Below are positions 31,839 to 64,000 of a stretch of 64,000 bases of DNA, piece after piece. This DNA comes from an uncultured Cellulophaga sp. GTDB lineage: Bacteria > Bacteroidota > Bacteroidia > Flavobacteriales > Flavobacteriaceae. Numbering within the stretch: position 1 is the first letter of the stretch; each line of letters begins with the position of its first letter. A program made the position numbers and the translations under genes. Under the pieces are notes generated by a model, which was not told where the DNA came from, did no database searches, and worked only from the letters and a program-made list of their open reading frames with translations. The DNA is taken from assembly GCA_947492955.1 (NCBI GenBank), contig CANLOV010000001.1, positions 434,001-498,000 on the forward strand. The letters are read 5' to 3'.

Positions 31839-33137
31839 TTATTTTTTAGCTTTTAAAAGCTTTTTGTTTTCAGATTTTATTCTTTCTTTTTGTTTGTTAC
31901 TTAAACCATGCTTGTAATGTTCAGCTGCCTTATGGTATACGTGGTGCTTTTTCATTTCTGGGTCATTTAAATCTAAACTCAAATCACAATCAAAACGAAC
32001 TAAAATAGAATGGTTTTTATCCCAAGTAGTAGCGTTTGTAAAATGAGAGATTCCCCAGGTTATTCCTCTACCATCTTTAGTGTTTGTGTAAGCATCAGGA
32101 ACAAAAGGCCCTGCTGCAATAGGCATTAAGTCAACCAAAGAGGCAATGTCAAAATTAACCCCATCTTCTGCATATTGTATAGTATTATGTTCGTTACCGT
32201 CTTTAATAACTAAAGCAGCAATACCTGTTTTAAAAGGAAACATAGTAGTTTCGTGCCCAGATGTTATAACAGGATTTAGTGGGTTTTTTTCAAAAGGACC
32301 TAAAGGGTTATCAGCAACAGTCAATCCTTGCATTCTTATCAATCTTGGGTCGCCATCAAAATCAGATTTGTAGTATAAATAGATTTTATCTTTATAAACT
32401 AATGGGTAAGGATCATGGATAGAATATTGGTCCCATTCTCCTTTTGCCCCGTTAGGGATAATAATTTTATTTGTGGCAGTCCAAGGACCATCTGGAGAAT
32501 CTGCATAAGAAAGTGTTACAGGGCAGTCGTCTCCACGTTTCCCACTTGCTTCCATAAACCCTTGGTAATATAAATAGTATTTACCCTTCCATTTTAAAAT
32601 ATCAGTGGTAGATACTGATCTCCATCCAACATTTGGTTTTGGAGGTCTAGGTACTGCAACTCCTTGTTCTTTCCATGTAAAACCATCTTCACTTGTGGCA
32701 TACCATATTTCGCATAAATCCCAATCGGAAGAAGGGATAGTTTCGCTACTGTTGGCAGCCCCTTTTGGTGGTGTTGGGGTATTCCTATAAGTATACCAAA
32801 CATAATATTTTCCGTTCTCGAAAATTACTTTAGAAGGGTCACGACGCGTAATGGTACCATCATGATCATTATAATCAAAACCTTTTAATTCGGTGTATTT
32901 AAATTGGGAGTATAATTCGTTGTCTTCAGGTCTTGGAGCTAGGTAATTGTCATAATTACGTTCCATGGCTCTACTTAAAGGGCGGTTAGGTTTTTCTTTG
33001 GGTAAGATAAAAGGGAAACCTTTTGTAGTGGTATTTGTTTGTGAATTAGCATCTTGCGATTTAGTAGAGCTACATGCTGTTAAGAATATTACAGCGCTTA
33101 AAGTGATGCTTAGTAAAGAGTTGATTTTGTATTTCAT
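31839..33137 (-). CDS. GH117-like alpha-1,3-(3,6-anhydro)-L-galactosidase, lipoprotein
   Basis: A 432-residue protein with a lipoprotein signal (SLLSITLSAVIFLTAC, lipobox Cys22). The mature protein is a five-bladed beta-propeller of the GH117 type. Candidate catalytic residues: D100 in TRRDPSKVI, D242 in YSIHDPYPLVYKD, and H295/E296 in ITSGHETTMFPF. GH117 enzymes remove the terminal 3,6-anhydro-L-galactose from neoagaro-oligosaccharides, the step after GH50/GH16 agarases. The N-terminal PNRPLSRAMERNYD and C-terminal LSLDLNDPEMKKHHVYHK match the domain-swapped arm and end that I recall for the Zobellia enzyme. It is monocistronic, 20 kb from the GH50-like gene. Confidence 0.87.
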   Translation of the reverse strand: MKYKINSLLSITLSAVIFLTACSSTKSQDANSQTNTTTKGFPFILPKEKPNRPLSRAMERNYDNYLAPRPEDNELYSQFKYTELKGFDYNDHDGTITRRDPSKVIFENGKYYVWYTYRNTPTPPKGAANSSETIPSSDWDLCEIWYATSEDGFTWKEQGVAVPRPPKPNVGWRSVSTTDILKWKGKYYLYYQGFMEASGKRGDDCPVTLSYADSPDGPWTATNKIIIPNGAKGEWDQYSIHDPYPLVYKDKIYLYYKSDFDGDPRLIRMQGLTVADNPLGPFEKNPLNPVITSGHETTMFPFKTGIAALVIKDGNEHNTIQYAEDGVNFDIASLVDLMPIAAGPFVPDAYTNTKDGRGITWGISHFTNATTWDKNHSILVRFDCDLSLDLNDPEMKKHHVYHKAAEHYKHGLSNKQKERIKSENKKLLKAKK

Positions 33138-36325: not shown

Positions 36326-36859
36326 ATGCGAAAATTAGAAAACAGCGAATTACCACGTTTAAATGTAGAAGAATTTAAAGAAGCCCATAAAACTCCTATT
36401 GTTATTGTGTTAGATAATATTAGAAGTCTTAATAATATTGGTTCGGTATTTAGAACGGCAGATGCTTTTTTAATAGAGAAAATATACCTCTGTGGTATAA
36501 CGGCAAAACCACCACATAAAGATATTCGTAAAACAGCTTTAGGAGCCACAGAAAGTGTAGCTTGGGAATATAAAGAGCATACTATAGAATTAATAGAAGA
36601 GTTAAAACAAGAAAATTATGAAATCTTAGCCGTAGAGCAAGCAGAAAATGCGGTTATGTTAAATAATTTAGAGGTTGATGTAGCTAAAAAATATGCTTTG
36701 GTATTTGGTAATGAGGTAAAAGGAGTTTCGCAAGAAGTGGTTTCTGGGGCCAATAAAGTAATAGAGATTCCGCAATACGGCACAAAACATTCTTTAAACA
36801 TATCGGTAAGTGCAGGTGTGGTAATTTGGGATGTATGGACTAAGTTAAAGGGGAATTGA
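36326..36859 (+). CDS. SpoU-family tRNA/rRNA methyltransferase
   Basis: A 177-residue minimal SPOUT methyltransferase. Motifs: IVLDNIRSLNNIGSVFRTADAF (motif 1, about 26-48), VFGNEVKGVS (motif 2, about 131-140) and EIPQYGTKHSLNISVSAGVVIWD (motif 3, knot, about 148-171). It lacks the N-terminal substrate domain of the larger SpoU protein at 26510, so it resembles the TrmH/TrmL-like short forms. Target unknown. The last 60 or so bases are duplicated at 38934-39002, beyond two inserted genes; the gene itself is complete. Confidence 0.93.
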   Translation: MRKLENSELPRLNVEEFKEAHKTPIVIVLDNIRSLNNIGSVFRTADAFLIEKIYLCGITAKPPHKDIRKTALGATESVAWEYKEHTIELIEELKQENYEILAVEQAENAVMLNNLEVDVAKKYALVFGNEVKGVSQEVVSGANKVIEIPQYGTKHSLNISVSAGVVIWDVWTKLKGN

Positions 36860-36864
36860 AAATA
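36796..36864 (+). repeat. Direct repeat copy 1: 3' end of the SpoU gene
   Basis: This 69-base segment matches 38934-39002 at 66 positions; the last 50 bases (36815-36864) are identical. Differences are at 36804, 36805 and 36814. It encodes the C-terminal residues of the methyltransferase and its stop codon. Confidence 0.95.
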
Positions 36865-36871
36865 TTATTTT

Positions 36872-38002
36872 TTGAAAGACTTTAATATATTTTTAGCTTA
36901 TTCGGGTATTAGTACTATTCTTTTTCTAATTGTACTATTGAGTAAAACTTGGAAAAAGCGAGAAGCAAATATAATTTTAGCAGGGATTCTTTTTAGTTTT
37001 TTAATTTTATTTCTCACATATGTTTCTTCCTATTTAAAATGGTCTTTATTAAAATTAGTGTCACCTGTAGGAGCAATAACACCTTTTGCATTAGTAGCTT
37101 TTATTTATCAATATATTCAAACGATCTATTCATCTGAAATTAAAGCTAAAAAGTTGGTAAAAAGTTTACTTCCTTTTGGAGTAGCTTTTATTGTTTATAG
37201 TATTCCCCAGTACATATTAGAGCAATCTTTATATAATAAACTTATTTTATTTAAAATCATATCACTCTTAATTCCTTTTTTGGGTATAGTGTATATGGCT
37301 TATTATCTTTTTTTGAGCAGTAAATTATTGAAACGGTATAGAAGGTTGATAAAAAACAATTATTCTAATATGAGTACATTAGATTTGCAATGGTTATCTA
37401 TATGGATTAAAGGTTTTTTGTTGTTTTTAATTATAGATATGATTAGTGGGTTTATAGTTGTTTTTTACCCTGTTTATTCTGATTTAGCTTATGTAAACCT
37501 TTTTTATTTAGTGTTGCTTATTTGGTATATAGGTTATTATGGGGTAAATCAGTCTCAAGTTTTTCTGGTTTCAGAAGTTGCCCCAGAAACCATTGATAAG
37601 GAAGAATCTCAGGAAAAAATAAAGAAGACTGTTTCATATTTTAATTGCGAATCAGAAGAGTTTATTGAGCTTAAAACTAAGTTAAAGTATGTGTTTCTAG
37701 AGAAAGAACTTTTTAAAAGACAACATCTTTCTTTGAAAGAAACTGCAGATATTTTGTGTGTTTCAGATAAAAAACTATCACATTTACTTAATATCTGTCT
37801 AGCTTCCAATTTTTATGAATATGTTAATACATATCGTGTAGATTATTTTAGAAAAAAAATGGAAGAAGGTGCTGCAGAAAAATTAACTTTATTAGCTATT
37901 GCTTTTGAATCAGGATTTAATTCTAAAGCTACTTTTAATAGAGTATTCAAACAACAAGTTGGTATCACACCTATAGAATTCAAAAAAAACTTAAATAAAT
38001 AG
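36872..38002 (+). CDS. AraC-family regulator with N-terminal membrane domain
   Basis: A 376-residue protein. Residues 1-225 form about seven membrane helices joined by short loops. A linker (about 230-275) leads to a cytoplasmic AraC-type DNA-binding domain (about 280-376): LSLKETADILCVSDKKLSHLLN is the first helix-turn-helix and LLAIAFESGFNSKATFNRVFKQQVGITPIEF the second, with the family signature. Such proteins sense an envelope signal and regulate nearby genes. The start is TTG at 36872, 12 bases after the SpoU stop, with no earlier ATG in frame. It lies inside the segment bounded by the 69-bp repeats, together with the CPBP gene. Confidence 0.88.
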   Translation: MKDFNIFLAYSGISTILFLIVLLSKTWKKREANIILAGILFSFLILFLTYVSSYLKWSLLKLVSPVGAITPFALVAFIYQYIQTIYSSEIKAKKLVKSLLPFGVAFIVYSIPQYILEQSLYNKLILFKIISLLIPFLGIVYMAYYLFLSSKLLKRYRRLIKNNYSNMSTLDLQWLSIWIKGFLLFLIIDMISGFIVVFYPVYSDLAYVNLFYLVLLIWYIGYYGVNQSQVFLVSEVAPETIDKEESQEKIKKTVSYFNCESEEFIELKTKLKYVFLEKELFKRQHLSLKETADILCVSDKKLSHLLNICLASNFYEYVNTYRVDYFRKKMEEGAAEKLTLLAIAFESGFNSKATFNRVFKQQVGITPIEFKKNLNK

Positions 38003-38034
38003 TCTCATAGAATCCAGTGAGTCGATTAAAGCAT

Positions 38035-38075
38035 TGTTTATGTATTCATTTGTCTAAAATATGAATCAATAAACA
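38035..38075. promoter_or_regulatory. Interrupted dyad between the AraC and CPBP genes
   Basis: TGTTTAT and ATTCAT on one side pair with ATGAAT and ATAAACA on the other, with a 2-base mismatch in each arm and an 11-base centre. It ends 7 bases before the CPBP ATG. A dyad upstream of the CPBP gene and downstream of the AraC gene could be that regulator's site; this is inference. Confidence 0.4.
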
Positions 38076-38082
38076 GTATTTT

Positions 38083-38910
38083 ATGAAGACATTAAAGAGC
38101 ACGGAATCTAGTGTAGTAAGTTCAATAGATTGTAGAAGAAAGGCAAATAGCTATATGCTATTAGTTTTGGGGATTTCATGGGGATTTGGATTTTTAACGA
38201 TAGCACTTTTAGATTATTCAAATCCTATTGTTAAATCAATCATTATGTTTGTTTTTGCGTTTATTCCTGCAATTATAGCATTTGCCCTTAATAAAAAAGA
38301 GGGGGGTAAATGGAAAAATTTAAATTTTTATAAACCATCTTTAAAAGGGGCTTTTAGTGCTTTTTTTATTCCTATTATTTATTTTGGAATAATTATTAGT
38401 GTCCAAATTTTATTTGATATAAGAACAATGCCAGATTGGTCAAAGATTGGCTCTCCTTTAATGGGTACTCTTTTTATTGTTCTTGGGTACCCTTTAACTG
38501 CATTACTTATTATGGGTGAAGAGATAGGATGGAGAGGTTATTTACAAGTGAAAATGATTAATGGTTTTGGAGCTTTTAAAGGAGTGTTATTTTTAGGCCT
38601 AATTTGGGGTATTTGGCATATGCCTATTGCTTTACAAGGGTATAATTTTCCAAATCACCCCTATATAGAAGCTTTTGTAACTTATCCTTTAGTGGGTGTA
38701 GCACTTTCTTTTATTATAGCATATCTCGGATATTCTAAATATTCTATTTTTATAGGAGTATTGCTGCATGCTAGTAATAACCATTTTGGTAGTATAATGT
38801 TAGCTATAACTGAAACCCAAGATGAGTTTGCACATGCTATGATTTTTAATGCTTTTTACATAATAATTATATTAATTTTTGGATATTTATGGAAGAAAAA
38901 GGTTGTGTAA
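38083..38910 (+). CDS. CPBP-family intramembrane glutamic endopeptidase-like protein
   Basis: A 275-residue protein with about eight membrane helices. The CPBP (Abi/CAAX) motifs are complete: E146-E147-xxx-R151 in GEEIGWRGYLQ, H179 in WGIWHMPIAL, and H229 in GVLLHASNNHFG. Family members include Rce1 prenyl proteases and bacterial proteins linked to bacteriocin self-immunity or maturation. No bacteriocin precursor is seen. It follows the AraC-type gene by 80 bases and is inside the repeat-bounded segment, so a regulator/target pair is plausible. Confidence 0.88.
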   Translation: MKTLKSTESSVVSSIDCRRKANSYMLLVLGISWGFGFLTIALLDYSNPIVKSIIMFVFAFIPAIIAFALNKKEGGKWKNLNFYKPSLKGAFSAFFIPIIYFGIIISVQILFDIRTMPDWSKIGSPLMGTLFIVLGYPLTALLIMGEEIGWRGYLQVKMINGFGAFKGVLFLGLIWGIWHMPIALQGYNFPNHPYIEAFVTYPLVGVALSFIIAYLGYSKYSIFIGVLLHASNNHFGSIMLAITETQDEFAHAMIFNAFYIIIILIFGYLWKKKVV

Positions 38911-38933
38911 TAGTAATTCAAGAATTGGTTGCA

Positions 38934-39002
38934 AAACATATTTGTAAGTGCTGGTGTGGTAATTTGGGATGTATGGACTAAGTTAAAGGGGAATTGAAAA
39001 TA
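38934..39002 (+). repeat. Direct repeat copy 2: duplicated SpoU gene end
   Basis: This is the second copy of 36796-36864 (66 of 69 bases identical). It still encodes the SpoU C-terminus in frame with a stop, but has no gene body before it. It begins 23 bases after the CPBP stop and ends 8 bases before the next gene. The distance between copies is 2138 bases. Confidence 0.95.
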
Positions 39003-39010
39003 GTTTTATA

Positions 39011-39469
39011 TTGAAACATTTAGTGTTAAAAATAGTATTGCCATTAACGATAATATCGTTTACAATAGTTACAAAATGGTGGTATGTTATTCCTGTGGAT
39101 GCACCAGGTACAATAATGGCTGGTTTTCCATTAATATGGGTAAGCGATGGATGGCATACATCTATGTCCTTGCAAATATTTTTAATGGAATTTACAATTA
39201 ACTTTTTAATTTATTTTGTATTCTGGTATTTGCTCATAGCATCGCTCAATAAATATTGGAGAAAAATAAAAGCTAAAAAAATAATTACAATACCTCTGTT
39301 TGTAATAAGTATGTTAATAATTGTTTTAACAATTTTTATAGGAAGTATGCCCAATCACGTCTACAAAACAAAAAGGGATTTTGATATACAAGTTTTAGAT
39401 ACGGGGTATAAATTCTTTTGGCAACAGCGCAAGCGCCCTAATTTTAGTGATTATGATGTGCAGCAGTGA
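39011..39469 (+). CDS. Small membrane protein of unknown function
   Basis: A 152-residue protein starting at TTG 39011. Three membrane helices are predicted (about 7-22, 52-77 and 93-112), and a hydrophilic C-terminus follows (YKFFWQQRKRPNFSDYDV). I recognise no family. It begins 13 bases after the stop encoded in the second repeat, the same type of spacing (and the same TTG-AAA start) as the AraC-type gene after the first repeat. It may originally have followed the SpoU gene directly. Confidence 0.65.
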   Translation: MKHLVLKIVLPLTIISFTIVTKWWYVIPVDAPGTIMAGFPLIWVSDGWHTSMSLQIFLMEFTINFLIYFVFWYLLIASLNKYWRKIKAKKIITIPLFVISMLIIVLTIFIGSMPNHVYKTKRDFDIQVLDTGYKFFWQQRKRPNFSDYDVQQ

Positions 39470-39507
39470 ATCGGTTTTGATAATAAGTTGATATACAATT
39501 AAAAAAC

Positions 39508-39540
39508 AAAGCACCCAACCGAGTGGTTGGGTGCTTTTAA
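39508..39540 (+). terminator. Rho-independent terminator after the small membrane protein gene
   Basis: A perfect 13-bp stem (arms AAAGCACCCAACC and its complement) closes a GAGT loop and is followed by TTTT counting the stem end. It lies 39 bases after the stop and before the convergent folK fusion gene. Confidence 0.9.
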
Positions 39541-39630
39541 ATATATAATTGAGTTTAGTTGGTTTTCTAATTACGGGTGCGCAAGAAAGTAAAATATTTT
39601 CTTATAGACAAGAAAAGTGTCTAAATTTTC

Positions 39631-55064: not shown

Positions 55065-57407
55065 ATGGCTTATTTTAAATTTATAAAAAGGAATCCAAAG
55101 AAGAGTATTGCTTTAGTAGTGCTTTTAACCTTGTATTACTTTTGTTTGCCTCGTAAACTTTTTAATGTACCAACTGCTACTGTAGTAGAAAGTAGTGAAG
55201 GTTTATTGTTGGGGGCAAAAATTGCAGATGACGGTCAGTGGAGGTTCCCAGCAGTAGATAGTGTTCCCTATAAGTTTAAGACATGTATTTTAAATTTTGA
55301 AGATGCTTATTTTTATAAGCATCCTGGTTTTAATCCTGTTTCAATGTCAAAAGCTATTAAGGCTAACCTTGTAGCAGGTAAAACGGTACGTGGAGGTAGT
55401 ACCATAACACAACAAGTTGTTAGGTTATCTCGAGGTCAGCAAAAAAGGTCGTATGCAGAAAAAGTTATAGAGTTAATTTTGGCTACACGTTTAGAGTTTA
55501 GACACTCAAAAGAAGAAATATTAGCATTATATGCAAGTTATGCTCCTTTTGGAGGTAATGTGGTTGGTTTAGAAGTAGCAGCATGGCGTTATTTTGGTTT
55601 ACTTCCCTATCAGCTTTCGTGGGCAGAGTCTGCAACCTTAGCAGTATTGCCTAATGCACCAAGTTTAATATACCCAGGGAAAAGTCAGACAAAGCTTTTA
55701 GAAAAACGAAATCGCCTATTAAAAAAATTGCATCAAAAAAAAATAATAGATAGTACTACTTATAAATTAGCTTTATTAGAAGAATTACCACAAAAACCCT
55801 ACGCATTACCTAAACATGCAAAGCACTTTGTACAATATGTATCTAATAGAAAAAAAGGAGAACGAGTTCGTAGTACAATCAACGATAATTTGCAACAGAA
55901 TGTAAATGCATTGGTAAAAAAGCATTACAATGAGTTAAAACAGAATCAAGTTTATAATGCAGCCGTTTTGGTTTTAGATGTTAAAACAAGAAAAGTTTTA
56001 TCATATGTAGGGAACACACCAACAGATGCTTTGCACGAAAAAGATGTGGATATGGTACATGCTAGCAGAAGTACAGGTAGTGTTTTAAAGCCATTATTAT
56101 ATGCTGCTATGTTAGATGCAGGAGAATTATTGCCTAATATGCTGGTAGCAGACATACCAACGCAAATTGCAGGGTACACGCCAGAAAATTTTAATGAGGA
56201 TTATAGCGGCGCTATCCAAGCAAAAAAAGCTTTGGCACGCTCTTTAAATATCCCGGCGGTTCGCTTATTACAATCTTATGGTTTGCAAAAATTTAGAGAC
56301 CAGTTAGATGCTTTTAAATTAAAAGGCTTAAATAAATCTGCAGACCATTACGGCTTAACATTAATATTAGGAGGAGCAGAAAGTAATTTATGGGATTTAT
56401 GTAAAACCTATGCTAATTTATCTTCTACAGTTAATCATTTTAACGAAACATCTAGTGAATTTTTTGAAAACGAATTTATGTCTCCTATATGGATAAAAGA
56501 GAAGGCTCCTAATTTCGGAAATAAAAAATTAGAAAAAAATGTATTTGATGCCGGGAGCATCTATTTAACTTTTGAAGCCATGAAAGAAGTAAATAGGCCA
56601 GAAGGTAGCGAGTCGTGGGAGTTTTATGATTCTAGTAAAGAAGTGGCATGGAAAACAGGGACTAGTTTCGGTAATAAAGATGCTTGGGCAATAGGTGTAA
56701 CTACAGATTATGTGGTAGGAGTATGGGTTGGCAATGCAGACGGAGAAGGTAGACCCAATGTTACAGGGGTTAGCAGTGCAGCGCCTATTTTGTTCGATGT
56801 TTTTGATGTGTTACCTAAATCTAGTTGGTTTTTAAAACCTTTAGATGAGTTTGTAGAAGTTGCAGTTTGTGCTAATAGTGGTTATTTAGCATCCGATATA
56901 TGTCCTAAACTAAATAATAGCATCCCTAATAAACGCAATTATGTAAAAGCCTGTGCCTACCATAAAACGATACATTTAAATAAAAACAAACAGTATAGAG
57001 TTAATTCCTCTTGTGAAGATGTGTCGTTGTTAGTATCGGAACCTTGGTTTGTATTGCCGCCTATTATGGAGTTCTATTATAAAAAAACTCACCCTACATA
57101 TAAAGTATTGCCTTCTTATCGTAAAGATTGTGACTATGTAAATGTACCAGCAATGGAATTTATTTATCCAAAAAATGGGACTAAAATAACATTAGCTAAA
57201 AATTTTGAAGGAGATAAAAATGAGCTTATTGTAAAATTAGCACATAACAAACCTGCAACTAGGGTGTTTTGGTATTTAGATAGTACTTTTATAAAAGAAA
57301 CTCAAAATTTTCATGAAATAGCAGTATTGCCTACACAAGGAACACATGTTATTTCTGCTGTAGATGCTATGGGTAATGAAAAAAGCATCGTTGTTACTAT
57401 TGATTAA
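55065..57407 (+). CDS. pbpC: Penicillin-binding protein 1C
   Basis: A 780-residue bifunctional enzyme. One N-terminal membrane helix (about 13-28). The GT51 transglycosylase domain has catalytic E79 in EDAYFYKHPGFNP and the RGGSTITQQ motif. The transpeptidase domain has S339-xx-K342 in STGSVLKP, SLN in LARSLNIPA, and K530-T-G in AWKTGTSFG. A C-terminal BiPBP-type domain (about 690-780) completes the family layout. It makes and cross-links peptidoglycan. It is cotranscribed with the alpha-2-macroglobulin gene upstream. Confidence 0.96.
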   Translation: MAYFKFIKRNPKKSIALVVLLTLYYFCLPRKLFNVPTATVVESSEGLLLGAKIADDGQWRFPAVDSVPYKFKTCILNFEDAYFYKHPGFNPVSMSKAIKANLVAGKTVRGGSTITQQVVRLSRGQQKRSYAEKVIELILATRLEFRHSKEEILALYASYAPFGGNVVGLEVAAWRYFGLLPYQLSWAESATLAVLPNAPSLIYPGKSQTKLLEKRNRLLKKLHQKKIIDSTTYKLALLEELPQKPYALPKHAKHFVQYVSNRKKGERVRSTINDNLQQNVNALVKKHYNELKQNQVYNAAVLVLDVKTRKVLSYVGNTPTDALHEKDVDMVHASRSTGSVLKPLLYAAMLDAGELLPNMLVADIPTQIAGYTPENFNEDYSGAIQAKKALARSLNIPAVRLLQSYGLQKFRDQLDAFKLKGLNKSADHYGLTLILGGAESNLWDLCKTYANLSSTVNHFNETSSEFFENEFMSPIWIKEKAPNFGNKKLEKNVFDAGSIYLTFEAMKEVNRPEGSESWEFYDSSKEVAWKTGTSFGNKDAWAIGVTTDYVVGVWVGNADGEGRPNVTGVSSAAPILFDVFDVLPKSSWFLKPLDEFVEVAVCANSGYLASDICPKLNNSIPNKRNYVKACAYHKTIHLNKNKQYRVNSSCEDVSLLVSEPWFVLPPIMEFYYKKTHPTYKVLPSYRKDCDYVNVPAMEFIYPKNGTKITLAKNFEGDKNELIVKLAHNKPATRVFWYLDSTFIKETQNFHEIAVLPTQGTHVISAVDAMGNEKSIVVTID

Positions 57408-57414
57408 AAAAATA

Positions 57415-58041
57415 CTTTTTTTGTAAAAGTAAATTAAAATATCATCAAATTGTTTTTCCCAAATAGACCAATCGTGATTGCCGCCTTTTATGCGTTCTAT
57501 TTTTAAATTATAGTTCTTTTTTTGTAAAATATCAATCATTGGTATATCTTGATTTTATGTATCTTTTCCCGTACCATAACTTAGGTATATTTTTAAGTCT
57601 TTTTTGGGTTCAGAATTAAAAGCAGGGGATTGCATGGCAATATTTTTGAAGGAAGTAGCAGCTTTGTCTCCTAGATATAGAGCAACCAAACCACCAAAAG
57701 AAACTCCTAAAATAGTTCTATCTTATCTTTTGTTACTTACGGGGTATAATTTTTCTACTTCAGGCATTAATTCATTAGTGAAAAAAGTAGTAAAATCAGA
57801 ATTACATAAAAATAATTCTTGTCTTAAATTCTTTTGTTTGTTATTAATATCCCATGGATTTAAAAATACAGCAGCTATAGGAGTAATAGTATTGTTGTAT
57901 ATTAAATTGAGGTAAATTATTTTTAATATAATTGTGACCGTCATTTATGTATATGATAGGAAGCTTTTTTATTATTTTATATGCTGGAGGTAAATAAATT
58001 CTATAAGGTAAGCTCTTATTTAGTACTTTGCTATTTATAAG
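57415..58041 (-). pseudogene. Decayed alpha/beta-hydrolase (esterase D/Fes-like)
   Basis: Reading the minus strand, esterase-type sequence is spread over three frames. It starts right after the ligase-like stop with SLPYRIYLPPAYKIIKK and LPIIYINDGHNY, continues in another frame as TPIAAVFLNPWDINNK and ELMPEVEKLYPVSNK, then in another as RTILGVSFGGLVALYLGD (GxSxG nucleophile elbow), and ends GGNHDWSIWEKQFDDILIYF, which carries the catalytic His. There are at least two frameshifts and an in-frame TAA at 57557-57555, and no start codon: the upstream TAA of the ligase-like gene is in frame. The gene is not functional. Its original substrate cannot be told. Confidence 0.88.
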
Positions 58042-59865
58042 TTATTCATTAGATAAACTACCATTAAGTTTATTATTGCTAATAGAATTATATTTCTTTA
58101 GATAATCACTAGCAGTTTTTTTATAAATATCTATCTGAGAGGAAGGAATTTTGACAGGGAAATTTATAATTTCATTAGATAATTTTATGATATCGTTGCG
58201 CCTGTTTAATTTTATATATAAGTTAAGTAAATCCATTCTGGCTTCATAACGATAAGGTTCTACATTAATATTAAACTTATATATTTCCTCAGCACTTTTA
58301 TACTTTTTATTTTCGGTATTAATTAAAGCCAAACGTTTGCCAATTCTTGGAGCGGCACTTTTTTTGAATGCCCTATGGATAAAATGAAATCCTTTTTCAG
58401 TAAACCCATTGTTGTATAATTTTGTACCTAAATAAGCATCGGAAAAACTATTGTCCTCAGTAAACTTAGACAAGTATATTAATTCTTTAATGTCCTGTTT
58501 GGTCTTAATACTAGTGTAGTGTTGGTATTTTTTTGTTTTAATTATTTTGTTAGAACATGAGTAAATACATAGTAATCCAACACTTACAATAAATACTTTC
58601 AATATTATGTCAAAATTTTTGGAGGCTCTAATTTTTTTTAAAGAGGTGTCTTTAAAAAGTAAAGCAAAGCTAAATATGCCAATTGTCATTATTGCCAAGC
58701 TCTCAGATGGGGAATTAAATAAGCCCCAAATGCATAGGTAAGTAAAAAGGCATAAACCCAATCTAGATTCATGTGTATACTTAATTCTTAAAATTACTAA
58801 TGCTATTAAAACAATTAGTATACTTAATATAATAAGACCTAATTCAAAAGAGATTAATACGTATTCATTAAAAGCAGAAAAAACATATGTAGCATGTTTT
58901 ATTTCTTCCCAAGACTTTGGGCTTTCAGAAAAATAAGTTGCTTTTGCTGCATTGTATTTTCTTGCAAATGAAAATAATCCGTGACCTTTAAGCGGGTGTT
59001 TTACGATTTCCTGTAACGATATTTTTGTAATTAAACTACGGCCATCAACAGAATCTGGCTTTAAATTGTAAAGTAATTTGCTGCTAATTATAATAGTGGA
59101 GATAAGCGTTAATAGAAGTAATGTAATTTTTATTAAAGAGATTTTTTTTAATAATTTTCTGCTATAATTAAATGAGCTAAGTAAAATTAGAGTACTACCA
59201 GTAATAGATAACCAGGTGCCTCTAGATTTAGATGCTATTATTAGTGTAGAAAATAGTAACAGGAGCAAACTTCCTATTATTTTTAAGGTGTTATTTTGTG
59301 TTTTTTTTACAAAAAAGAACCACATTAAAATAATGAACCCTAAACCAATAAAAGCAGCAAAAAAATTAGGAGAATTAAAACTTCCCAATAATTTAAAGTA
59401 GTTATTGCGAGAATTAATAACGTTTAAATATTGTAGGCTTGCTAATAGGGCTTCTATAAAGCAAATGCCAACTATTATAAAAAATACAAGATGTATTAAT
59501 TTTGTTTCCTCCTTTGTTTTTAAAACCCATCTAAAAATAAAAAATAGAAATATGTAACCTAGGTATAGCCATAATTTATAGTAGTATACTGTTGCTTCTG
59601 AAAGAAAATAAAAATTGCACAATGTATATATTGTAATTGTAAATATGCCTATATCAAATAGATTTAATTGTTCTAATTCTAATTTAGAATAGCCAACTTT
59701 TAAAATACCCCATAAGCCCCAAAACGCAATCATTATAGTTTTTACTGTAACGTCATTAAAATCAACTAAAAATTTTAAAATTAAAGGAATAATAAAAATG
59801 GAAGCAATAAAAAATAAGTCCAATTTCCATTCTTTTTTATTTATTATTGAAATTAGTTTTTTCAT
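58042..59865 (-). CDS. O-antigen-ligase-like membrane protein with C-terminal helical repeats
   Basis: A 607-residue protein from ATG 59865 (MKKLISIINKKEWKLD); the frame is open for 31 more codons upstream. About ten to twelve membrane helices cover residues 15-445, with the Wzy/WaaL-type periplasmic loop between them (YNLKPDSVDGRSLI near 300, HPLKGHGLFSF near 323). Residues 450-607 are helical and TPR-like. Such proteins polymerise or ligate surface sugars; here the substrate is unknown, and no other polysaccharide genes are adjacent. It is divergent from the transglutaminase-like gene. Confidence 0.75.
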   Translation of the reverse strand: MKKLISIINKKEWKLDLFFIASIFIIPLILKFLVDFNDVTVKTIMIAFWGLWGILKVGYSKLELEQLNLFDIGIFTITIYTLCNFYFLSEATVYYYKLWLYLGYIFLFFIFRWVLKTKEETKLIHLVFFIIVGICFIEALLASLQYLNVINSRNNYFKLLGSFNSPNFFAAFIGLGFIILMWFFFVKKTQNNTLKIIGSLLLLLFSTLIIASKSRGTWLSITGSTLILLSSFNYSRKLLKKISLIKITLLLLTLISTIIISSKLLYNLKPDSVDGRSLITKISLQEIVKHPLKGHGLFSFARKYNAAKATYFSESPKSWEEIKHATYVFSAFNEYVLISFELGLIILSILIVLIALVILRIKYTHESRLGLCLFTYLCIWGLFNSPSESLAIMTIGIFSFALLFKDTSLKKIRASKNFDIILKVFIVSVGLLCIYSCSNKIIKTKKYQHYTSIKTKQDIKELIYLSKFTEDNSFSDAYLGTKLYNNGFTEKGFHFIHRAFKKSAAPRIGKRLALINTENKKYKSAEEIYKFNINVEPYRYEARMDLLNLYIKLNRRNDIIKLSNEIINFPVKIPSSQIDIYKKTASDYLKKYNSISNNKLNGSLSNE

Positions 59866-59957
59866 TATTACAAAGTAGTATTTATCGGGCAATTTAGGTT
59901 TAAAAAGGTATATTAGCAAAACATTTATTTTCTTGTAATAAAATATGATATTGTACA

Positions 59958-61520
59958 ATGAATGACTTTTTTTTTAAGCTAAAGAAAGTAGCTTTTTTTT
60001 GTGTTTGCGTTGGAGTGTATGGACTAAAAGGCCAAACTATTGAAGAGGCTTTTTTAGCAGCAGGGGAAAATAAAAATAATTTAGAAAAAGTACTACATCA
60101 TTATAAAACACTTGGCGAAAAACAGAAGTATGAAGCGGCACTTTTTTTAATTAAAAATATGCCTGTTCACGAATCTCAAACTTATCAGTGGATTGATTCA
60201 GGAAATAATATAGTACTATTTTCGGAGTTTAATTATGAAGATTTTGATGTGGCATTACAGGTGTTTAATAAATTTAAGGATAGTATAGGAGTACAACCTA
60301 AAATGCTTAAGGAAAAAGATGTAAAATTTATATCATCAGAATTATTAATAAAAAATATAGATTTAGCTTTTAAGGCTTGGAAAAACAACCCATGGTCTGC
60401 ATCCTATTCTTTTAAAACATTTTGTGAGTATATTTTACCTTATCGTTCCTTAATAGAACCTTTGGAAGAGTGGCGAGAAGAATGTAATTTTTTAGTACAA
60501 CAAGCTAAATATAATTTACAAGACCAAACAAACCCTGTTGAGGTTTGTACAAATGTAATGACAGAATTACAAGGCTTTTCTTTTAGGTATACAAATAGTC
60601 CTATACCAGCTCCACTATTAAGTGCGCAACAATTATTATTTAGAAGAGAAGGAAGTTGCCCTGAGTTAGCAAATTTGGCGGTCTTAGCTTCTAGATCTAT
60701 TGGTATTGCTGTTACTTTTGATTTTACGCCACATTATGCAGCATCTTCTAACCGTCATTATTGGAACACTGTTATAGATAAGCAAGGAAAAGCTGTTCCT
60801 TTTAATGGTAGTTCTGCAAGTGACGGAAATGGTACACCATATAATTATGATGCTAATAATAAACGTATGGCAAAAGTAATTAGAAGTACATATGCTATTC
60901 AGGAAAATGCTTTAGCCACTCATGTAAAGCAACAATACATCCCTAATAGTTATTTAAGAAGTAAAAATATTAAAGATGTAACCCATGAATATGTCTCTGT
61001 AGGAGAGATTAAGTACAATTTTAGTAATAGTATTGACTCAATAGCTTATTTAAATGTATTTAACAATGGTAGATGGAATGTAATAGATTGGGCAAAGAAA
61101 GAAAACAAATATTTTAAGTTCGTAAACATAGGTAGAGACTTAGTGTACTTACCTAGTTATTATACCAAAGGGGAAACTAGATATGCAGAATATCCTATTC
61201 TGCTTAATGAAGAAGGAAAGTCAATAATTTTAAAACCTAAGCGTAATAAATTTTTTCGCTGTACAATAAGCAGGTATAATGAAGTTAAAAATAAATATGA
61301 AGAAAATAATTCGCTGCACATAGAAGCAGATGAAAATTATACTTTGTTTTATTGGGATGGCGAATGGCAAAAAATAGGAACATCAGTAGCAACCAGAGAA
61401 GGGCTGTATTTTAAAAAAATTCCATCAAACAGCTTACTTAAATTACTTCCGGTAAATTCGGATAATAGGGAGCGAATTTTTTTATTAAATCCTGAAAACA
61501 AGAAAATTACATGGTATTAA
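59958..61520 (+). CDS. Secreted transglutaminase-like protein
   Basis: A 520-residue protein with a Sec signal peptide (1-26, ending KGQ). A helical region (28-200) precedes a transglutaminase-like papain-fold core: C234 in GSCPELANLAVL, H267 in NRHYWNTVID and D274 form a plausible Cys-His-Asp triad. The C-terminal part (about 340-520) is beta-rich and may be a carbohydrate- or protein-binding domain. Whether it acts as a protease, a peptidoglycan hydrolase or a transamidase cannot be read. It is followed by other exported proteins. Confidence 0.8.
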   Translation: MNDFFFKLKKVAFFCVCVGVYGLKGQTIEEAFLAAGENKNNLEKVLHHYKTLGEKQKYEAALFLIKNMPVHESQTYQWIDSGNNIVLFSEFNYEDFDVALQVFNKFKDSIGVQPKMLKEKDVKFISSELLIKNIDLAFKAWKNNPWSASYSFKTFCEYILPYRSLIEPLEEWREECNFLVQQAKYNLQDQTNPVEVCTNVMTELQGFSFRYTNSPIPAPLLSAQQLLFRREGSCPELANLAVLASRSIGIAVTFDFTPHYAASSNRHYWNTVIDKQGKAVPFNGSSASDGNGTPYNYDANNKRMAKVIRSTYAIQENALATHVKQQYIPNSYLRSKNIKDVTHEYVSVGEIKYNFSNSIDSIAYLNVFNNGRWNVIDWAKKENKYFKFVNIGRDLVYLPSYYTKGETRYAEYPILLNEEGKSIILKPKRNKFFRCTISRYNEVKNKYEENNSLHIEADENYTLFYWDGEWQKIGTSVATREGLYFKKIPSNSLLKLLPVNSDNRERIFLLNPENKKITWY

Positions 61521-61672
61521 TGTAGGTTAAAACTTTGTTTTTAATTAAAGTTAAATTGTCCAAAATAATAAGAAAAGTAAGGTTTTTATTTTTTTTTTCA
61601 TAAAATTTTGTAAGTAAATATTTCGATTACGACTAATGCGATTTAATCAATTACAACCAATTTTATTAGCTT

Positions 61673-62794
61673 ATGAAAAAAAAGGTATTAATACTACTGT
61701 TGGTAGTATGTTCGACATTTATTGTAAATGCACAATCTGCAGAAAATTATTTGCATTATCCTAAACAAATCGATTCTATTGTAGGGGTTTCTCAAGATCA
61801 AAAAAAATTAATAGAAGAAGCTTTAAACAAAGCTAATTGGCTTTGGGATTATGCCAATACGCGGTATGGTAGTTTAGATCAGGATTTAAAAAACAATTTT
61901 ATAGCTTATCATTTTTATGTTTATGCCAAAGATGCTCAGCTTACATCTGTTTCAGAAATCAAAAATCTTGAGGTAGAATTAGCAAAAAAGGAAAGCCTAC
62001 GGCAGCTAATTAAAAAATTAGCTAGGCGTATGTCTCAGCAAAACTGTGAAAGTAATGCCTTAGTTGTTCAACAAGAAGAAGGGTTAATTAAAATTGTAAA
62101 GAGAATAGTAGCTAAAGAAATAGCTAAAGATTTAAGAGTTAAAAGAAAATCATATCAATCTTTTATAAATCTTAATGCACCAGAAAAAACCTATGAACAA
62201 ATACAAGCAATTGTAGAAGTAGAAAAAGAAAAATATTTAAATGATCAAAAGGAAGTATTCTACGCAAAATTAGTAAAGAAGGCGCAAAAACTAGGCTTAG
62301 ATAAACCAAGGATAGATGAACTAATTAGGTTAATTAAACAAAAAGAAGAAGATGTAGCCGAAATATACCGAAGAAAGAATGAAGTTTCTTCTGCCAGTCT
62401 TTTTGAAGTTACTACAGAGAAAACCCATTCAGAAATAAGTTTAGAATTTTCAAAAAATGTAGCTAAACTCATTACTAAAAAAGAATTTGCTAAGATATTA
62501 GGAGGAGATTTAAAACCTGCTTCTATAAAAAATGCGCAGAAAGATATAGAAGAAGTCTTTGCAATTTATGAGCTTAATGAAGAACAAAAAGAAGCAGTCT
62601 CTAAAAAAATTAAATCCTATTACTTTAAAGAAATTATTATAAAACATTATTACAGGTACAATTGGGAATTGCAGAATCAAAAATTAGGCGGTTTACGATA
62701 TAATTTTGAAAAAGATTTTAAAGAAATGATGGATAAATTTAATGTAGCTGTAAAACCTACTACCAAAGCCAATAATAATACTTTCCAATATTAA
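61673..62794 (+). CDS. Secreted helical protein of unknown function
   Basis: A 373-residue protein with a Sec signal (1-20, VNAQ). The mature part is nearly all helical and very rich in Lys and Glu (LLKKLARRMSQQ-like, EVEKEKYLNDQKEVFYAKL), with long heptad-like stretches. It has no catalytic motif I recognise. It lies in the same direction between the transglutaminase-like and Sel1 genes; the last starts 13 bases after its stop, so the two are probably one unit. Confidence 0.78.
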   Translation: MKKKVLILLLVVCSTFIVNAQSAENYLHYPKQIDSIVGVSQDQKKLIEEALNKANWLWDYANTRYGSLDQDLKNNFIAYHFYVYAKDAQLTSVSEIKNLEVELAKKESLRQLIKKLARRMSQQNCESNALVVQQEEGLIKIVKRIVAKEIAKDLRVKRKSYQSFINLNAPEKTYEQIQAIVEVEKEKYLNDQKEVFYAKLVKKAQKLGLDKPRIDELIRLIKQKEEDVAEIYRRKNEVSSASLFEVTTEKTHSEISLEFSKNVAKLITKKEFAKILGGDLKPASIKNAQKDIEEVFAIYELNEEQKEAVSKKIKSYYFKEIIIKHYYRYNWELQNQKLGGLRYNFEKDFKEMMDKFNVAVKPTTKANNNTFQY

Positions 62795-62807
62795 TATAAA
62801 TTAACAA

Positions 62808-64000
62808 ATGAAAAAGTACATTCTTTTATTCGGATTATATCTTTCCGTGTTGGGTTTAAATGCTCAAAATTCATGCGAAGAAACCTTAAAAAAAGCAGAA
62901 CATATATTATTTAAAGAATCTCCATTTATAGACCAATCTAACTTAGTTGCTTTGTTGGAACCTTGCGTGCTAAAAGGTAATGCAAAAGCAGAAAATTACC
63001 TGGGTCTAATGTATTTAAATGGTATAGGTGTAAAAAAAGATGTTAATAAGGCATATAGCTATATTTCTAGTTCGGCAGATAAAGGCTACGCCAATGCTCA
63101 ATATAATATGGGTAGGCTTTATAAATATGGTTTAGGTTGCGAACTTAGTTTTGCAAAAGCAATAGACTGGTTTAAAATAGCGGCAGCTAATGATAACCAA
63201 AGGGCAGCTTACAGTTTGGGGTATATGTTTTATAAAGGTTATGGAGTACCACAAGATTATAAAAAAGCTGTAGAATGGTTTGAGCGTAGTAGTGATCCCA
63301 TGGCAAAACATTTTTTAGGAGTATGTTGTTATTTAGGTTACGGTTTGCCTGTGGATGAGGATAGAGCAATAAAGGCGCTATTAGCAAACGAAACTGTTAA
63401 TAGTAAAACATTTTTAAAACACATACAAGAAAATAAAAAAGTAAGGAATGAGCGTAAAATTGCAAAAGTACTAAAGAAGAGTAATGATTCTACTTATATA
63501 AAACCAGAAGTATTAAAAAAAGTTAAAGTAGAAGAATACCCTAACCCTACGGCTGTTAATGAGCTAGAAGGCAATTGGAATGGTAAATTAGTACAGTACG
63601 ATTGGTCTGGTAAACATATTACACGTATTACACCAGTAGCCGTGGATATTACGGTAGTTAATAGTACAGTAAAAATAAAACTATTTATTGCAGAACAGCA
63701 TTTTGAGGTTTACGGAAAGTTTATAGATGGTACTATTTATATAGAAAACGATGTAATTTTTGCTTTGGATAAATTGTATTCTAATGATCCTAATGAGGAA
63801 ACATTAGATTATACCATATTTACTTTAGGTTTAGATAAGAAAGAAGTAAAAGGAGAAGTGTATTTAACAGGCTTAGTAGATACTTTTATAGCCTCTTGGG
63901 CAGAGTATGGAGAGCCTATGAGTTTAGTGTTAAAATCCAAAGAAAATAGAACAACTATAGACGAGGAAATGTTGTTAGCATTAGCTTCTCAGGAAGACCA
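62808..64000 (+). CDS. Secreted Sel1-repeat protein (truncated by window edge)
   Basis: A frame from ATG 62808 is open to the window end, 397 codons, with no stop. Sec signal at 1-19 (LGLNAQ). Four Sel1-type (TPR-like) repeats lie in about 60-185: AENYLGLMYLNGIGV, AQYNMGRLYKYGLGC, AAYSLGYMFYKGYGV and AKHFLGVCCYLGYGL. Then a Lys-rich linker and a beta-rich domain beginning near 245 (LEGNWNGKLVQYDWSGKHI). Sel1 repeats mediate protein contacts. It starts 13 bases after the helical secreted protein gene. Confidence 0.85.
   Translation, partial: MKKYILLFGLYLSVLGLNAQNSCEETLKKAEHILFKESPFIDQSNLVALLEPCVLKGNAKAENYLGLMYLNGIGVKKDVNKAYSYISSSADKGYANAQYNMGRLYKYGLGCELSFAKAIDWFKIAAANDNQRAAYSLGYMFYKGYGVPQDYKKAVEWFERSSDPMAKHFLGVCCYLGYGLPVDEDRAIKALLANETVNSKTFLKHIQENKKVRNERKIAKVLKKSNDSTYIKPEVLKKVKVEEYPNPTAVNELEGNWNGKLVQYDWSGKHITRITPVAVDITVVNSTVKIKLFIAEQHFEVYGKFIDGTIYIENDVIFALDKLYSNDPNEETLDYTIFTLGLDKKEVKGEVYLTGLVDTFIASWAEYGEPMSLVLKSKENRTTIDEEMLLALASQED

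Follow-up and report, generated by a model that had tools for sequence, protein, structure and literature searches.

An insertion behind spoU and a recurring footprint of orphan gene 3' ends in the genome of an uncultured Cellulophaga sp.

In the genome of an uncultured Cellulophaga sp., foreign DNA is inserted directly behind an intact spoU gene, and a short orphan copy of the end of this gene stands on the far side of the new DNA. The insertion is real and is part of a footprint which recurs in the same genome, where eight orphan copies of gene 3' ends lie downstream of the intact gene in 1.258 Mb. As to the mechanism, we infer that foreign DNA was captured additively and without an integrase, with the conserved 3' end of a core gene as the anchor; we give this proposal an even chance of being right. 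The entry of small accessory genes without mobility genes is hard to see afterwards; a natural genome with several footprints, which record the anchor gene, the repeat length and sometimes the native side, would make such capture testable.

Organization of the spoU locus

The window is the whole stretch of 64,000 nt that was analysed. Its features around spoU are the following; the gene names pbpC, leuB, tadA, aat, folK and trmH used in this text are ours and are based on Pfam families.

36326–36859, plus strand: spoU/trmH-family methyltransferase gene, 177 aa, intact (Pfam SpoU_methylase, 5.5e-35); orthologues in 17/17 congeners
36796–36864, plus strand: proximal repeat copy, the closing 64 nt of spoU including the stop codon, and 5 nt more
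36872–38002, plus strand: AraC-type regulator with a TTG start, 376 aa (Pfam HTH_18, 3.3e-14; N-terminal membrane part recognised by eye)
38083–38910, plus strand: CPBP (Rce1-like) intramembrane protease, 275 aa (Pfam Rce1-like, 2.8e-9)
38934–39002, plus strand: distal orphan copy of the spoU end, without gene body (repeat searches and tblastn)
39011–39469, plus strand: gene of a membrane-like protein, 152 aa, no Pfam family; missing at this site in the congeners
39511–39567, plus strand: terminator hairpin and TATATAATTGAGTTTAGTTGG stretch, native DNA by its likeness (by eye) to the post-spoU spacers of L004–L020
39631–40884, minus strand: folK fused to a deoxynucleoside kinase gene (Pfam HPPK and dNK), the native convergent neighbour, found behind spoU in 17/17 congeners

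The first-pass annotation, made from the letters alone, had described a 69-base repeat of the spoU end lying 2138 nt downstream, with 3 mismatches and identical final 50 bases. A repeat search and a scan of the whole genome both confirm it. The repeat search pairs a longer stretch (36796–36884 with 38934–39022, 87% identical), which the genome scan trims to the 69 nt of 36796–36864 and 38934–39002; the 50 identical bases consist of 45 through the stop codon and 5 past it. The 89-nt stretch matches just two places in the whole genome (BLAST; E 8e-27 for the distal one). As had been noticed, the distal copy has no gene body: a tblastn search of the insert and the copy matches the final 20 spoU codons alone. 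The regulator and the protease, both assigned by Pfam, are indeed the only genes between the copies, and the genes behind the two stop codons start with TTG-AAA after 12 and 13 nt. The architecture is like that of an island, with a restored gene 3' end and an orphan copy on the far side. Pfam finds no integrase in the AraC, CPBP or 39011–39469 proteins, as the annotation had stated.

Comparison with relatives identifies the empty site. Convergent folK stands 153–212 bp behind spoU in 17/17 congeners (G001–G017), and most of these spacers contain, by eye, a terminator-like hairpin and a stretch near TATATAGTTTGAGTTAGTTAGTT. A second spoU end is found in none of the 97 spoU–folK intervals searched among relatives (or up to 6 kb at the three loci where folK was not found), in which the best repeat scores 14 against 60 in the window with similar scoring; 80 of these 97 are loci from a second collection and the others are the 17 congeners, and at least 3 genomes are present twice under different identifiers. 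A near-identical SpoU C-terminal fragment occurs, among 18 whole genomes of the genus, in that of the window only. The arrangement is an insertion, since folK directly follows spoU in all 17 congeners and none of the 97 relatives has a second end.

In the window, the hairpin and a similar stretch sit behind the third gene (39011–39469) and not behind spoU. With the native terminator in this position, the third gene is therefore new to the site as well, and the segment from about 36860 to 39500 is, as judged from this comparison, entirely new. No third copy of the spoU end lies beside 39011–39469 (BLAST of the whole genome). The empty site and the native terminator on the far side support the view that the insertion took place behind spoU and kept the gene intact. 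The first-pass annotation had expected an empty site in which spoU would be directly followed by the 39011–39469 gene: the empty site exists in 17/17 congeners, but it is folK that stands directly behind spoU. The early reading missed two points, namely that 39011–39469 is also foreign to the site and that the footprint recurs at other genes.

Among relatives, the spoU–folK interval ranges from 0 to 5537 bp, and 37/80 loci (L033–L112, none of the same species) have ORFs of at least 90 aa in it. Of the 88 ORFs in these intervals, 27 belong to a single protein cluster. The interval of L093 encodes a 58% relative of the window gene 31839–33137.

Genes carried by the insert

The insert genes are rare among relatives. 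No close AraC orthologue exists in the 17 congeners (best identity 33%), and relatives of the protease at E ≤ 1e-20 occur in 3/397 genomes of the family, the present one included. In both other carriers (L142, 65% identity; L143, 51%), an AraC gene lies directly upstream of the protease gene and the pair stands behind different genes, not spoU, with no comparable flanking repeat. The AraC relatives also start with TTG (TTG-AAA in L142, TTG-CAA in L143), therefore this start was not created by the insertion. The region upstream of AraC is longer in both relatives, and this additional part is absent from the window. The pair may be a travelling regulator/protease unit, which would here be read from the spoU side.

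The suggestion of a self-moving cassette goes further than the data: the three proteins have no Pfam integrase, and BLAST finds the 69-nt end nowhere else in the genome, around other cassettes or otherwise. The same cassette with spoU ends was sought elsewhere and was not found, the pairs of L142 and L143 being behind other genes.

The 39011–39469 gene is also rare, with 2/18 genomes of the genus and 7/397 of the family, the present one included. In three loci with relatives of this gene (L135, L136 and L137), the gene is found among direct repeats of 80–215 nt that are 78–90% alike; the repeats bracket the 152-aa family gene in L135 and L136, and lie behind the gene and the following ORFs in L137. 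By eye, they resemble the recombination sites of a gene-cassette array. An integron-like origin of 39011–39469 was considered on the basis of L134–L137 and rejected, as no such site is seen by eye behind the window gene. In L138 (1420–1950), a relative of the 152-aa gene starts within about 10 nt of the stop codon of a carbonic-anhydrase-like gene, ahead of a convergent murI-like gene (names given by eye). Its placement is like that of the 39011–39469 gene at spoU, without a repeat.

A recurring footprint at gene 3' ends

The genome was scanned over 1.258 Mb (1113 ORFs of at least 80 aa) for direct repeats 200–20,000 nt apart. Of 217 repeats, 54 were kept as low-multiplicity and 163 were dropped, being overlapped by more than two repeat rows (arrays and tandem repeats; simple-sequence repeats had been filtered earlier); some of the dropped rows touch gene ends. 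The eight genes with the footprint are spoU, pbpC, a DUF2797 gene, aat, tadA, a sulfatase gene, the gene of a GH15 enzyme, and leuB. They represent seven independent regions and not eight, because the pbpC and DUF2797 events interleave. The inserts measure 1.4–13.1 kb and the repeats 30–134 nt.

The second event in the window concerns the pbpC-like gene.

55065–57407, plus strand: pbpC-like gene (penicillin-binding protein 1C; Pfam Transgly, Transpeptidase, BiPBP_C), with the same footprint
57348–57422, plus strand: repeat of 75 nt (92%) at the 3' end of the pbpC-like gene; the orphan copy is at C1:504557–504631, 13,209 nt further downstream and beyond the window

The scan labels this pair '3dn+5up', since an ORF start falls in the distal copy; it is counted as a gene-end copy. 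The 13-kb insert (57423–64000 of the window and L151:1–9500) encodes an O-antigen ligase, transglutaminase-like and Sel1 proteins and many unnamed proteins. A PoNi-type immunity protein (1.3e-30) adjoins this insert, which suggests a polymorphic-toxin region. Elsewhere in this genome (G000, C1:408000–428000 and C2:1–17000), dense repeats of about 25–290 nt lie between short ORFs, possibly cassette arrays.

Seven of the eight repeats end 0–5 nt past the stop codon and the pbpC repeat ends 15 nt past; exact identity past the stop extends over 5, 5, 1, 2, 0, 1, 2 and 0 nt in the eight pairs. The homologous stretch is thus on one side only: the copies have in common a short coding segment, with no likeness past the stop. 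This sharp end bears on the unequal exchange that had been suggested at spoU. A tandem duplication of the gene end and its neighbourhood, followed by the loss of most of one unit, would produce a direct repeat of the gene end, but the duplicated unit should share downstream DNA. At spoU the copies cease to be identical 5 nt after the stop codon, nothing is common beyond 0–5 nt in 8/8 pairs, no longer remnant is left, and the inserted genes are missing at the site in the congeners; this explanation is highly improbable. An assembly artefact is hardly credible: the assembly is a draft in 57 contigs, but the joins show no common k-mer that could have produced them, and the stated contamination is 0.03%. 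Nor do the distal copies have the remnant of a longer paralogue behind them.

No orphan gene-end copy on the upstream side was detected by the scan of this genome. One orphan gene-start copy lies in the pbpC/DUF2797 region, and the remaining end-touching rows are paralogues or within-gene repeats.

Repeats ending 0–5 nt past a stop codon amount to 7/54, compared to 0.56% by random placement (P ~2e-8), and the wider category of all gene-end copies to 8/54 (P 0.009), both tests having been picked after seeing the data. In the congener G005, 0.8 Mb gave no orphan gene-end copy by the same scan. In 0.4 Mb of G009, it returns one '3dn' row and two '3up' rows, and in none of these does the repeat end 0–5 nt past a stop. 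The '3dn' row (221742) has other repeat rows around it at a spacing of about 9.8 kb and is not counted, so that no case is counted in the 1.2 Mb of these two congeners. The 80 family loci around spoU (0.97 Mb) give one '3dn' candidate, of 38 nt and at the edge of locus L100, and a single '3up' row, in L037. If rates were equal, the probability that all seven regions fall in the sample of this genome would be 0.009. With two control genomes sampled, a footprint special to this genome is a lead.

The eight target gene ends are unrelated in sequence and define no single attachment sequence. An integrase supplied in trans and inserting DNA site-specifically at gene 3' ends, as with tRNA-gene islands or SCC at rlmH, would explain the restored gene end and the orphan copy on the far side. 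The genome has five tyrosine-recombinase matches, one of which (C7:85518–86012) lies about 3.8 kb beyond the distal leuB copy. One site-specific enzyme is nevertheless unlikely, because no two of the targets have the same sequence and Pfam finds no recombinase family in 22 insert proteins (AraC, CPBP and 20 others, two of them partial, the small ORFs being partly covered). This possibility is therefore regarded as very doubtful.

Divergence of the copies and direction of the insertions

The copies differ in 22 codons, a fraction of 13/22 being synonymous, compared to 0.18–0.23 expected (P 6e-5). This excess fits two once-functional alleles better than the decay of a single copy. The one non-synonymous difference in spoU and the two in leuB are close to the left repeat edge. 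In the DUF2797 pair, 6 of the 11 differing codons are non-synonymous, and this pair looks older.

Such divergence would also be expected if a cassette without integrase were already established, bearing an exact coding copy of its target's end and entering and leaving by homologous recombination of the repeats on either side. The lineage would then have a class of cassettes for which the 3' ends of many genes are generic landing sites: each would carry the final 30–134 nt of its target, enter by one homologous crossover that leaves the gene unharmed, and be released by another. Selection on the carried gene end would explain both why the repeats end abruptly at the stop codon and why they diverge synonymously, and the non-synonymous differences at the left edge of the distal spoU and leuB copies would be in the part that is untranslated after insertion. 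An older cassette that keeps a coding-exact end by selection explains the sharp end better than the crossover model presented below. Yet this genome has no second cassette with a spoU end, the 97 relatives have no second spoU end, and eight unrelated targets would need eight such cassettes, so that we consider this explanation quite unlikely.

The empty-site comparison covered spoU, tadA, aat and leuB in the 17 congeners, and the GH15 gene in G009 only. The gene located behind the distal copy of the tadA end stands 63–218 bp after tadA in 17/17 congeners, with a recognisable intergenic sequence. At aat, the corresponding gene is weakly matched (30–44%) near aat in 10/17 congeners and unmatched in 7. 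Neither neighbour is found beside leuB in the 17 congeners; the genus-like terminator is on the proximal side, and the direction of the leuB event is undecided. The first ORF behind the distal copy is convergent in 6/8 cases, and at spoU convergent folK stands behind the 39011–39469 gene. At spoU and tadA, no loss of recipient DNA is seen, the native terminator and neighbour being retained.

Proposed mechanism

Classic homology-facilitated illegitimate recombination (HFIR) follows the same anchor logic: on one side a linear strand finds its homologous partner in the gene end, and on the other side illegitimate joining returns it into the recipient gene; no circle is involved. It has been proposed for the effector–immunity modules of Vibrio cholerae, and a displaced effector 3' end is mentioned in that work (PMC5361080). 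HFIR products generally delete DNA of insert-like size, according to PMC3240628, whereas DNA is added here, and the join would have had to fall 30–134 nt before the stop codon every time. HFIR is for these reasons a fairly unlikely explanation.

In the preferred scenario, that of additive capture, the donor fragment would have contained the 3' terminus of a spoU allele that was related and functional, directly followed by the AraC–CPBP pair. This fragment would have circularised and a single homologous (RecA-type) crossover would have taken place within the short shared coding stretch. The outcome would be an intact, possibly hybrid spoU, followed by the new genes and by the orphan spoU end, ahead of the old downstream DNA. 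The same process would have hit the other genes, and short repeats would survive since longer ones recombine out. The model is favoured by the empty site, the native far side at spoU and tadA, the eight different gene ends, the surplus of repeats ending 0–5 nt past the stop, the synonymous excess, and the lack of a longer paralogue remnant behind the distal copies. The presence of comEC does not discriminate, as this gene occurs in 18/18 genomes of the genus. Ku-dependent joining was rejected: the genome has no Ku gene for end joining, which is found in 1/18 genomes of the genus.

The weak point of the model is the sharp end of the repeats at stop codons, which it explains only partly: near-identical alleles should share downstream DNA, yet identity ends 0–5 nt past the stop in 8/8 pairs. 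The donor state, with spoU directly followed by the pair and no second end, was not found, the relatives of the protease in L142 and L143 being behind other genes. The two congeners scanned have comEC and show no such case, which the model leaves unexplained. The direction at leuB and the non-synonymous share in the DUF2797 pair also count against it. An orphan copy of a gene's 3' end downstream of the same gene can serve as a search rule for recent captures elsewhere.

Comparison with known systems

SCC elements at the 3' end of rlmH (an rRNA methyltransferase gene) and islands at tRNA 3' ends depend on a recombinase and have the repeat on both sides. The present inserts resemble them in their position at a gene 3' end and in their flanking repeats, but no recombinase is found here and the targets differ. 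No spoU-targeting island was recognised in full-text searches.

Minimal mobile elements of Neisseria are small cassettes between conserved genes without mobility genes (PMC2649163), and in this the present inserts are like them. Their exchange uses both flanking genes, and they are not known to leave a gene-end duplication.

HFIR in naturally competent bacteria, as described in PMC5361080 and PMC2884548, shares the homologous anchor on one side and the arrival of new genes without mobility genes; it generally deletes recipient DNA, whereas no loss is seen at spoU or tadA. Direct repeats occur at 10–18% of small variable segments, according to PMC2884548. In the T6SS and Rhs clusters, with their orphan immunity arrays and displaced 3' ends, a module is likewise inserted and the old gene end pushed downstream (PMC5361080). 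In those clusters an effector gives way to toxin modules, whereas the present inserts leave core housekeeping genes intact and their cargo is mostly unrelated to toxins.

The nearest experimental parallel found is in E. coli, where re-circularised DNA with homology at one end integrates by a single crossover and gives lacZ duplications, as reported alongside HFIR (PMC3240628). Both situations have foreign DNA between direct repeats of part of a gene end, and no integrase. The E. coli case is a selected laboratory lacZ construct with repeats of 109–950 bp, whereas the Cellulophaga genome has natural inserts at eight genes, with repeats of 30–134 nt that end at stop codons.
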